The translations under genes were made by a program, and so were the position numbers. A DNA stretch of 64,000 nucleotides, from NCBI RefSeq assembly GCF_003417465.1, contig NZ_QVMV01000030.1, positions 1 to 64,000 of the forward strand, in the 5' to 3' direction. Under the pieces are notes generated by a model. The model ran no database searches and was not told where the DNA came from. It worked only from the letters and a program-made list of their open reading frames with translations. Positions 16,953-20,684 of the stretch are shown piece by piece (within the stretch, counting starts at the first letter, position 1; each line of letters opens with the position of its first letter). The stretch is from Wenzhouxiangella sp. 15190. GTDB taxonomy: Bacteria > Pseudomonadota > Gammaproteobacteria > Xanthomonadales > Wenzhouxiangellaceae.

Positions 16953-19900
16953 TCAGTTTTCAAACCCATCACGGAAGATTGAGTCACCCGGTTCGGCGAC
17001 CTGCAACTCCACCATCGTCAGCGGATCTGCGGAATTGGTGACGGTAAACAGCCCGTCTTCGCCGGCCACCAGGTCCAACGATTCACCCAGCTGCAGTTGA
17101 CCGCTGCGCCAGGACAGCGCCTCGTCCGACTCTTCGACTCCGAGCACCAGCGCGCGTGAGCTCAGATTGACCAGGCGAACCGTCCCACCCGGGCGGACCT
17201 CGGACCAGGCCGGGCTCATACCCTGGTCCTCGATCATGATTACCCGGTCCGGTGCATTGCTCGAAATCGGTTGCAACACGAGGCCGCGTTCGATCGGGCC
17301 TTCGGCAATAAACGGCGGACTGCGATGCATCTGATAACCATCGGCCTGCGCCACGAGCTGGTAGACACCGCGTGGCACGCTGAAGCTGAACGGATAGGCG
17401 CCTTCCAGGCTGCTCTGGACATACATGCTGCCTGTCTGACCGTACGGCTCACCGTTCCAGGGCACAAACAGCATCTCGCCCCGCAACGGAACGCCGACCA
17501 GCAGATCGATACGGATTTCCGGGGCGCTTTCGTTCGACAGACCTCCGGTTTCGACGCCGGCCGGCGCCTTCCACACCTGCCCGTGCCGGGCCACAGCCGG
17601 GCGGCCGGCAAATCCGATATCCATGTCGCCCAGGGTCAATTTGACGATCAGTTCGCGCTCGTCTGGCGTATCGGTCTCGCTACGCGATTGGCCTGCCGTG
17701 GTCTGTTTTCCGAACAGGGCATCGGCCTCGTCGAAGAAGAAGGACTCGGTCTGGTAAAAGGCCGGGACGGCGGTTTCGACCGCGTTGAACCGGCGCTGCT
17801 GCTCACCGTAGCGGTCGATCAGACGCGGGTCCGCATCGATCAGCGACGGCTTGAGGCCGAACACGGCGATGTATTCGTTGCCTTCGGCCGAGGCCGGCAG
17901 CCGCACCGACCAGTCGCCGCGCGAAAATCCCAGGGTGTCGGGCAGAATCACCGGACCCGGAATGAGCGGTCGCCCATCGTCGTCGGCCATGATCGTCGCG
18001 GCCTGATCCGCGGGCACCTCGACGAAACCCAGACTGATCGGATCGATCGGCAGGCTGCTGTCGACGGTGAACACGCCACAAGCGGCCATGGCCGTTCCGT
18101 CGCGCCGGGCGCGTTCACCGATTCGGTCCTGTTGATCATCCGCCAGGCGGGCGGCCGAGTCGTCGCAGGCATACGGATCACCCACGGCAATGCGGTAGTG
18201 GGCGTCGGGCAGGTTGGTCAAGTCGAGCTGCCAGCGACCATCATCCAGGAGCGAAGTCTCCTCGACGTACACCCCGGGTGCGATGTAGTCGCCGGCACGG
18301 CTGTCATCCGTGGTGCTGGCGATGACCTGAATCCAGAGATTGACGTACCCCTCGTTGGCAATCTGTTCCTGGTAGTAGTCGCCTTCCTCGCTGACGTACT
18401 GGGCCGTTTCGCCTGTAGGAATGAAGCCGCCCAATGTCAACTCGGACTGGTTGGTGGTCCCGCGCGGCACCCAGAACGGTGAATTCGGAGAACGCGCGGC
18501 GATGCGGCCGTGCTCGGGCCATTCGGTCAGCATGCCCAGGCCGGAGACTTCCGAAAAACTGGTCACATGGTTATCGGTGTTGATATCGCCTTGCGTGATC
18601 GCCTCGGCATGCACGGTCCAGTCGACCGGCTCCGCGCGCAAGTTATCGCCAACGATCACTTCATCACCAATCTCGGGGCGGAATTGCACCACCAGGCGTC
18701 CCCGTTCGCCCGGTGCCAGGTTGACCGGCTCGAAGCGGACGCGATTTTCCTCGATGCTGTACTCGTCGGGCTGCAGGCTGGAGTAAATGGTCTGCGCATC
18801 GCGGCGTGGCTTGACCAGGGCAAACGTCGAGCCGGCCTCGATCTGGTCCCGGGAAATGCCATGCGGAAAGTCGAAGATCCGCTCGACATTGTCGGCGCGC
18901 TGGCTGCCGATATTGGCGTAGTCCATGACCCAGGTCCACTCGATCTTCTGGTCGGTAACACGCGTGCTATCCGGTTCGGTCAGGATCCGCGACGACCCGC
19001 CCAGATCGACCGCCAGGTCCGGACCGGCGCCGGCAGAGCCAAGCGGCCGGAGCAGGAAGTCTTCGGTTTCGCCGAAGCGCCACGGAACACCGGACCCGCG
19101 TCCATCGCCGAACTCGACCGATCCGACCGCGGCGGTCTTGACCGACGGCGTCTCGCTCAAGCTCAGGCGCACCCAGGCCGGCTGCAGGGCGAGCTCGCTC
19201 GGCCAATGGATTCGCCCGGTTGGAACCTGCAGCGTGTGGTATCCGGGACCCAGGGCGGCGACGTCGACCGGATAATCGATGACGGCATGTTCGAAGGCCC
19301 GCCCGGACGGACAGGACGCCACTCGCCCCCACTGCCCGTCGCGGTCGAAATCCAGCCAGGCATTGAGGAAGGCGGATTGCTGCCCGGCCGCAAACCACGC
19401 CGCCGCTTCGCGGCTGACGAACACCTGCACATCGATGGTGGTGGCGCGGCAATGCCGCAGCGCCCATGACGCGGGCTGCGTGCCGTCGTCGAATTCGTCG
19501 AGATCGGCACGGTTGCGGGCCGGCTCGATATTGGCATTCGTACCCAGATCGGCATCGGCCTCGCGACTGACCGAGCGGCCCAGGTGCAACGGGCGGGGCC
19601 GGGCATGGGCCGGCCCCGGCACTGCGCTGGGCGGTGTATCGAAAACGCTGGCGAAGCCGGCCTGCATATCTCGATAGGCATTCATCGCTACGCCGGCGCG
19701 ATTGGAACTGTCGGGCGCATCACCCAGATCCCAGCCGCGAACGCGAACCGTTCGGGAGACGTGACGGATTTCATCGTCCGGGCCCGGGCGCACGCTCTCC
19801 TCGCCGGCCCGCAGCATGGACAGCAGTACATAGTGGATCCCGGCTTCCAGCGCCGTTGCTTGCCGGCTGGTCGACGACTCGTCCAGGTGCGGGCGCATAT

Positions 19901-20684
19901 CGGTCCAGACGGCCACGGTCCGGGTCTCGCCGGCATCGATCAGAACCGGAGCATATCGGGATTCGGTCCCCGGCGGCTCCGAGTCTGCCGAACGTACGTC
20001 CATCAGCACGCCGACGGTCGCCGGCAGCTGCCCCTGATTGCTCAATGTCGCCTGCAGCAGCGCTACATTGGCATAGCGGTCATGGCTGTCACTGACTCTC
20101 GTCGGCTCCGTTCCAGCCCCGTCTTCCTCTCCGGGAAAGGACAGCGACAAATCGACCGCAATATCGTCCAGCGAAACCATCGGTGGACACTGCACCGAGT
20201 AGTCGCTCGATGCCGTCGTTCTCTGTCCACTGCCGTCGAGCACGGCAATAACGGCCTGGCTCCGGCGATCGGCGAGTGTCTGACCCGGCCGGCAAGCCAC
20301 CTCGACCCGCACGGGAATGGTCAATTGAATGCGGGTGCCGCCGGCTGCCATGGTGCCGCGCCAGCGCACCACGGTTTCATTGACGCCATCGGTCGTTCGG
20401 CGCTTCTCGACGGCAACCCGGCGACTGCTGACCGCCCCGCTGCGCACAGACAACTCAACCGTGCCGTCGATATGCAAAGGCTCGCGAATAACCTCGACCA
20501 GGGAAAATTCCCGAGTTTCGCCGCCACTGAATTGAAGGTCGGTGACGTATTCGATGAGTTCACCGGCACGAACCGTCTGGTCGTCGCTGACGATCTGCCT
20601 GGAGACGGTCAAATCCGCTATCGATGCCGCCACCGGTCCGGAGACAGCAAGCACCAGAATAATAAAACTTGCTACACGTGACAT
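16953..20684 (-). CDS. Large secreted GEVED-type surface protein with C-terminal FRDGFEN tail
   Basis: A 1243-residue exported protein with a signal peptide (MSRVASFIILVLAVSGPVAA). The first 300 residues look like conserved-repeat (DUF11-like) beta domains. A segment opening WDLGDAPDSSNRAGVAMNAY and containing AWLDFDRDGQW and later WRFGETEDFLL is the GEVED-domain pattern of secreted and adhesin-like proteins. Further beta-rich regions follow. The last ten residues are DSIFRDGFEN; I recall similar IFxDGFE endings on many secreted proteins of Xanthomonadales-like bacteria, which suggests a sorting or secretion tag. AAGG lies seven bases before the ATG. It is divergent from the next secreted protein. 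Confidence 0.8.
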   Translation of the reverse strand: MSRVASFIILVLAVSGPVAASIADLTVSRQIVSDDQTVRAGELIEYVTDLQFSGGETREFSLVEVIREPLHIDGTVELSVRSGAVSSRRVAVEKRRTTDGVNETVVRWRGTMAAGGTRIQLTIPVRVEVACRPGQTLADRRSQAVIAVLDGSGQRTTASSDYSVQCPPMVSLDDIAVDLSLSFPGEEDGAGTEPTRVSDSHDRYANVALLQATLSNQGQLPATVGVLMDVRSADSEPPGTESRYAPVLIDAGETRTVAVWTDMRPHLDESSTSRQATALEAGIHYVLLSMLRAGEESVRPGPDDEIRHVSRTVRVRGWDLGDAPDSSNRAGVAMNAYRDMQAGFASVFDTPPSAVPGPAHARPRPLHLGRSVSREADADLGTNANIEPARNRADLDEFDDGTQPASWALRHCRATTIDVQVFVSREAAAWFAAGQQSAFLNAWLDFDRDGQWGRVASCPSGRAFEHAVIDYPVDVAALGPGYHTLQVPTGRIHWPSELALQPAWVRLSLSETPSVKTAAVGSVEFGDGRGSGVPWRFGETEDFLLRPLGSAGAGPDLAVDLGGSSRILTEPDSTRVTDQKIEWTWVMDYANIGSQRADNVERIFDFPHGISRDQIEAGSTFALVKPRRDAQTIYSSLQPDEYSIEENRVRFEPVNLAPGERGRLVVQFRPEIGDEVIVGDNLRAEPVDWTVHAEAITQGDINTDNHVTSFSEVSGLGMLTEWPEHGRIAARSPNSPFWVPRGTTNQSELTLGGFIPTGETAQYVSEEGDYYQEQIANEGYVNLWIQVIASTTDDSRAGDYIAPGVYVEETSLLDDGRWQLDLTNLPDAHYRIAVGDPYACDDSAARLADDQQDRIGERARRDGTAMAACGVFTVDSSLPIDPISLGFVEVPADQAATIMADDDGRPLIPGPVILPDTLGFSRGDWSVRLPASAEGNEYIAVFGLKPSLIDADPRLIDRYGEQQRRFNAVETAVPAFYQTESFFFDEADALFGKQTTAGQSRSETDTPDERELIVKLTLGDMDIGFAGRPAVARHGQVWKAPAGVETGGLSNESAPEIRIDLLVGVPLRGEMLFVPWNGEPYGQTGSMYVQSSLEGAYPFSFSVPRGVYQLVAQADGYQMHRSPPFIAEGPIERGLVLQPISSNAPDRVIMIEDQGMSPAWSEVRPGGTVRLVNLSSRALVLGVEESDEALSWRSGQLQLGESLDLVAGEDGLFTVTNSADPLTMVELQVAEPGDSIFRDGFEN

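Follow-up and report, generated by a model that had tools for sequence, protein, structure and literature searches.

A short C-terminal peptide of the form IFx[DN]GFE, noticed at the end of a 1243-residue exported protein of Wenzhouxiangella sp. 15190, is probably, judging from the way it is distributed over sequences, an undescribed address label that sends proteins to the cell surface or holds them there. The protein is encoded in the window analysed here (the whole stretch of 64,000 nucleotides, positions 1 to 64,000 of contig NZ_QVMV01000030.1) and ends, as an earlier note on this DNA had read it and as the translated reading frame confirms, in DSIFRDGFEN. The reading preferred here, to which a probability of about one half is given, is that IFx[DN]GFE serves as a sorting tag, without a helix, for proteins that Sec exports in the Lysobacterales (Xanthomonadales), and that it belongs to the surface pathway of exosortase H (XrtH) and the type II secretion system (T2SS). 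The tag itself is well supported; the machinery that reads it we infer from co-occurrence, for which phylogeny is the main confounder.

The recurrence of such endings, put forward in the earlier note, is real. With the pattern IFx[DN]GF[ED], 116 matches were found in 21 of the 43 genomes of the family, vs. none for the reversed control, and 1627 matches in 83 of 200 genomes of the order (at least 90% completeness requested), with a maximum of 80 per genome, vs. 12 for the reversed pattern (summed by hand). As this pattern admits only I at its first position, V and L variants are missed in these counts. Across the 200 genomes, the use of the tag is on or off by lineage: the tail, previously ascribed to Xanthomonadales-like bacteria, does recur in the order without being general there, most genera of families f2 and f11 having no real copies.

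The position of the tag was analysed at 59 loci, drawn from part of the matches in five genomes (G045, G047, G074, G078 and G090), no stop codon being required. In 57 of the 62 distinct copies the C-terminus is at most 15 residues away and in four it is 16-45 residues away, while one copy comes right behind a signal peptide; doubtful frames underlie at least two of these copies (L272 and L295). The consensus of 241 distinct C-terminal copies is D-[LV]-I-F-[A/R]-[D/N]-G-F-E; 54% of them have D at position -2, and the fixed positions are true by construction since the set was picked by the motif plus at most 15 trailing residues. At these fixed residues, every synonymous codon is in use. A total of 155 of the 241 collected tails stop on the last motif residue; a residue after the motif is usually absent and, where present, the first is mostly G, S, D, N or A. 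None of the NCBIfam and Pfam matches listed for the queried tails spans the motif.

Concerning the proteins that carry the tag, a crude predictor of our own, which counts membrane proteins too, found a signal peptide in 42 of 59 tagged vs. 144 of 587 other frames at the named loci, and in 42 of 48 tagged vs. 81 of 239 other frames at the fetched loci. Seventy-eight tagged proteins from both sets, namely those predicted to have a signal peptide and no longer than 1000 residues, have a mean column identity of 7%; only the four pattern-fixed tag residues are invariant among them, and five further columns reach 90%. At E 1e-3, matches to 61 NCBIfam and 77 Pfam models were obtained for this set, each of several overlapping models being counted; among them are choice-of-anchor Q proteins (10), reprolysin-like peptidases (6), subtilases (4), M36 peptidases (3), the endonuclease I family and glycoside hydrolase 44. 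Chance, or the shared ancestry of a C-terminal domain, is an extremely improbable explanation. Some tagged proteins are indeed mutually homologous, and antisense or internal chance matches are present in low-count genomes, but such an origin is contradicted by the reversed control, the free use of synonymous codons and the 7% identity. Together with the position of the copies, these results bear out the earlier picture of a conserved, helix-free C-terminal tail on diverse exported proteins.

The distribution of XrtH was then compared with that of the tag. PF09721, tried as an exosortase probe, turned out to be mainly a weak XrtH detector, the small exosortase behind its matches being XrtH at 171-201 bits in the six proteins checked, and it was replaced by TIGR04177. 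With the latter, XrtH was found in 102 of the 200 genomes, comprising all 62 genomes with at least four tag matches vs. 40 of the 138 others (Fisher p 1e-24, phylogeny ignored); the threshold of four was chosen since XrtH-positive genomes also contain some single matches that are spurious (e.g. L045, L051, L099 and L102). As many as 1623 of the 1627 matches fall in the XrtH-positive genomes, and the four matches in the 98 XrtH-negative ones include no tail, lying by eye in PilY1-like, antisense, VirB3-like and phage-like frames. Among the 200 genomes, the tag is thus present only alongside XrtH, as would be expected of XrtH-dependent cargo. At the genus level (hand counts), the tail genera are four of the five XrtH-positive genera among 20 in f11 (p 0.001 if genera are independent) and the only two XrtH-positive genera among 16 in f2 (p 0.008, with the same proviso). 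The search for a co-occurring partner gene, as advised in the earlier note, therefore yields XrtH as a candidate with a closely matching distribution.

As for the T2SS, its canonical form was defined as GspL of at least 45 bits (our own cut-off), plus genomes G154, G060 and G100, which were included manually on the basis of GspG. In a panel of 52 genomes, GspL is strong in all 26 tag genomes, vs. seven strong and six weak matches among the 26 genomes without tag matches. Over the order, GspL reaches 45 bits in 47 of the 48 genomes with at least ten matches, the remaining one (G154) having GspG at 182.8 bits, while the 117 zero-match genomes comprise 19 with strong, 34 with weak and 64 with no GspL. 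Taking both systems together, the median is 15 matches in the 79 genomes with XrtH and T2SS and 0 (maximum 6) in the 23 with XrtH only; the ten genomes with T2SS only all have 0 matches, and the 88 with neither have at most one.

These figures also bear on a different explanation, namely that the canonical T2SS itself recognises its cargo by the tail and that XrtH is merely co-inherited in the same lineages. Peptidases, endonucleases and glycoside hydrolases are the sort of enzymes this system exports, and such peptidases, the endonuclease I family and glycoside hydrolase 44 are among the cargo; canonical components (GspL or GspG) are found in 48 of 48 genomes with at least ten matches, and GlyGly-CTERM and MYXO-CTERM proteins use the T2SS, according to PMC11980579. 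It is nevertheless rather unlikely, for the ten T2SS-positive, XrtH-negative genomes have no match (eight of them resting on GspL of 45-63 bits in f2 alone), 13 of the 26 zero-match panel genomes have a GspL match, seven of them strong, and seven f8 genomes carry real tails without a canonical T2SS marker. Two side observations concern the T2SS. By GspG score, two types are apparent in 57 genomes, at about 150-194 and 90-136 bits, often both in one genome. Tag genes inside T2SS loci (three of 20 flagged, and a fourth, in G012, by coordinates) were not used as evidence, because a rough estimate of gene density gives two to three by chance.

A link between the tag and XrtH is also suggested by IPTL-CTERM. 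This tag (TIGR04174) pairs with exosortase H (TIGR04177), and the NCBIfam name 'midcut-by-XrtH' on a partial match to an IPTL-type end agrees with that pairing. XrtH-positive genomes mostly have IPTL-CTERM-type ends, with none to 20 matches at the loose cut of E ≤0.1, at which XrtH-negative genomes, too, give single weak matches (E 4e-4 to 0.1); 15 of 30 IPTL loci gave a clean end by our own expression, a sixteenth match (L043) being spurious. Comparison of the IPTL-type ends with 253 tail-type proteins gave 92 alignments, mostly of repeat domains distant from the ends. Among the 40 of these listed, four come within 12 residues of both tags and involve two tagged proteins: the IPTL-CTERM protein L375 aligns with the tagged L213 over 446 aa at 30% identity, up to 12 and 5 residues ahead of the respective tags, and L378, L357 and L363, all with IPTL-CTERM, align with the tagged L186 near both tags, over one shared domain of about 100 aa. 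In a few cases, then, homologues bear one tag or the other, like an exchangeable suffix. The two tags are thus alike in that they occur largely in the same genomes and, on a few homologous proteins, at one and the same C-terminal site; they differ in that IPTL-CTERM has a hydrophobic stretch and basic residues at its end, whereas IFxDGFE has neither and can be N-terminal. TIGR04174 matched neither the window protein (up to E 1) nor six other tails (up to E 5) and is absent among the 25 of the 61 NCBIfam families listed for the 78 tagged proteins.

Compared with the tripartite class of sorting signals, IFxDGFE has a signature motif near the C-terminus of unrelated proteins, N-terminal signal peptides on its carriers and, in those few cases, suffix behaviour; it has no terminal basic cluster, and 57 of the 62 copies leave at most 15 residues for a transmembrane helix behind the motif. 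It behaves as a C-terminal sorting tag, yet lacks the helix and the basic end of that class. GlyGly-CTERM with rhombosortase and MYXO-CTERM with myxosortase resemble it in placing one C-terminal tag on many unrelated exported proteins and in exchanging suffixes, and the proteins of both are transported by the T2SS, by which MYXO-CTERM cargo gets to the surface; theirs are, however, tripartite signals cut by intramembrane proteases, vs. 7-10 residues without a helix here (PMC3237569 and PMC11980579). The M36 models named for these two systems match just upstream of one IFxDGFE tail, and rhombosortase was itself discovered by phylogenetic profiling, as PMC3237569 relates. PEP-CTERM with its exosortase shares the sporadic distribution and the often dozens of carriers per genome, but IFxDGFE has neither the PEP motif nor the helix; a high-scoring exosortase match was found in only two of the 200 genomes (G181, 228 bits; G121, 149 bits), the rest scoring 21-41 bits. 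Type IX C-terminal domains are likewise helix-free, and act as a secretion signal on Sec-exported proteins; they differ in that each is a folded domain, roughly 70-100 residues long, and in belonging to Bacteroidota. No sorting-domain model of the type IX secretion system matched the window protein (NCBIfam, up to E 1) or six other tails.

That XrtH itself cuts or transfers the tail is very unlikely, in spite of the very close co-distribution of the two, because there is no helix to seat the tail in the membrane. Exosortase tags, as PMC3237569 describes them for PEP-CTERM, have a membrane helix and basic residues behind the motif, but 155 of the 241 tags end on the motif; moreover, N-terminal copies could not be processed by such cutting. 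Such copies do exist: at three loci, L067 (DUF1800), L085 (Lcl_C) and L258 (PQQ propeller), the motif stands a few residues past the end of the signal peptide, the N-terminal placement in a fourth flagged frame (L086) being unclear. The earlier note places the tail at the extreme C-terminus; most copies agree with this, but at least these three do not, and the motif is therefore not strictly C-terminal. Internal copies (L059, L073 and L089) and tandem tag-like segments at the C-terminus (L071, L074, L078, L188 and L296) were also found. A peptide tolerated at either end fits binding better than C-terminal cutting.

Binding need not involve a dedicated reader. The tail might dock on a non-protein surface component (polysaccharide, S-layer or LPS) or self-assemble, the XrtH genomes having that surface in common. 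The placement of the motif at either protein end, sometimes in tandem, is what a docking peptide could show, and the tag genes have no dedicated gene neighbourhood: around the 117 tag loci compared, no family is widespread, with five loci covered by the largest clusters. We regard this explanation as unlikely, since the close tie with XrtH and the exchange with IPTL ends suggest a shared protein pathway.

Several observations weigh against a sorting tag of the XrtH/T2SS pathway, one of them being that same lack of a family recurring beside the tag genes. XrtH is not sufficient, as no match was found in 23 of the 102 genomes that have it. A few losses may be all that lies behind the on/off pattern, genera not being independent, and co-occurrence is not mechanism. 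The partners tested were GspL, GspG, the exosortase and XrtH, plus the IPTL tag, and a gene outside this set could fit better. The majority of the 92 alignments between IPTL-type and tail-type proteins extend to one tag at most. Finally, a canonical T2SS is not strictly needed for the tag: G079, G089, G093, G113, G117, G125 and G153, the f8 genomes mentioned above (2-6 matches, real tails), have no GspL match and only GspG at 117-130 bits, i.e. in the range of tag-free f11 genomes.

Under the sorting-tag reading, the protein would be exported by Sec and fold in the periplasm, where its exposed terminal peptide would be bound, not cut, by a receptor that belongs to the XrtH surface pathway or is sorted by it; the lack of a helix and the presence of the motif at mature N-termini are the reasons for preferring binding. 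The T2SS would then move the protein across the outer membrane, after which it would be retained at the surface or released from it. More specifically, and only as a tentative proposal that is doubtful as it stands, a folded periplasmic protein would present the peptide at one or the other of its ends to an XrtH-tied component, which would read it and hand cargo to the canonical T2SS; the peptide would then be a linear, helix-free surface label of Gram-negative bacteria, unlike both the tags with a helix and the folded type IX domains.

In the 20 xrtH neighbourhoods inspected (L331-L350), mostly housekeeping genes were found. Within 10 kb of xrtH, a response regulator occurs at 16 and a kinase at 14 of the 20 loci, in rough clusters, the counts being rough because shadow reading frames are included. 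In genus g29, xrtH is adjoined by an OmpA-domain protein with Ig repeats (L343:6966-9254 and L344:10489-12768), barrel-like by eye ahead of the OmpA domain; it is a candidate outer-membrane partner.

Beyond the sampled genomes, a named collection scanned with a GC-rich codon version of the motif plus stop gave at least 117 stretches. Among the 80 matches listed, 57 are under names of the order, 18 in proteobacterial bins without resolved placement and five in other phyla (hand count); the named carriers listed include Dokdonella, Tahibacter, Pseudofulvimonas, Aquimonas, Wenzhouxiangella, Marinicella and others. As regards the five other-phylum matches listed, that of Thermoanaerobaculia (L141) reads as a real tail, three look like chance and L144 is ambiguous. 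A longer ending, IFxDGFExG....W, is present three times in one 6.75-kb Thermoanaerobaculia contig (L141), once at L209 and once at L050, in a genus-mate of the window's genome, two of these endings finishing in a T[TV]xxP-like TVP. It is possibly a related tag in another phylum.

The window's genome is itself a marginal user of the tag, with two clear tagged proteins after the contexts of all 40 F-x-x-G-F-E matches were read, and its genus uses the tag little. F-x-D-G-F-E has three matches in this genome (reversed control 0), two of them one residue ahead of the stop and the third internal to a frame. The second tagged protein is beta-propeller-like, probably exported, encoded on contig C33 and ends in VIFEDGFEE. 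At L004, F-x-x-G-F-E stands six residues ahead of the stop of a 55-residue frame and has no D/N; at L388 (G000:C55:11400-13200), a putative frame ends in HFGNGFENIVF, the motif being four residues ahead of the stop. The genome has XrtH at 201.5 bits, GspL at 51.9 bits, GspG at 182.4 bits and three IPTL-type matches (best E 3e-4). In the genus, any IFx[DN]GF[ED] match was found in eight of 30 genomes, this one (G000) included, and at least two of these matches (L045 and L051) are not tails.

The features of the window protein are given in Table 1. Its N-terminus, MSRVASFIILVLAVSGPVAAS, is by eye a Sec-type signal peptide. The GEVED label given to it earlier holds only weakly, PF20009 scoring 18.2 bits vs. 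a cut-off of 24.4. No NCBIfam match was obtained up to E 1, and no homologue was found at E 1e-3 in the 42 other genomes of the family or in one scan of genome contigs. Without a homologue in those 42 genomes, kinship does not explain its tail.

Table 1. Position and basis of the features of the tagged window protein
Feature	Position	Strand	Basis
ORF of the tagged exported protein (1243 residues), with its stop codon	16953..20684	-	ORF translation
Probable Sec signal peptide, about 20 residues, MSRVASFIILVLAVSGPVAA	20625..20684	-	Judged by eye
Weak GEVED-like region, residues 440-545	19050..19367	-	Pfam PF20009, E 0.0047, under curated cut-off
C-terminal tag DSIFRDGFEN	16956..16985	-	Core IFRDGFE at 16959-16979

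No description of the tail was found in the family libraries or in the literature, searched by the tail letters and for C-terminal motifs of the order with a small coverage of subscription papers. Known tags that place bacterial proteins at the surface mostly include a membrane helix that a sortase-like enzyme cuts, or are whole folded domains, and we know of no generally accepted linear signal for the T2SS. A helix-free tag of 7-10 residues whose occurrence at four or more copies is limited to XrtH genomes would mark out a new route of delivery or retention. It would predict much of the surface proteome in a group of bacteria and would offer a sequence signal, open to testing, for a possible T2SS route; if the label is indeed read by an XrtH-tied component, it would provide a sequence handle on the choice of T2SS cargo.

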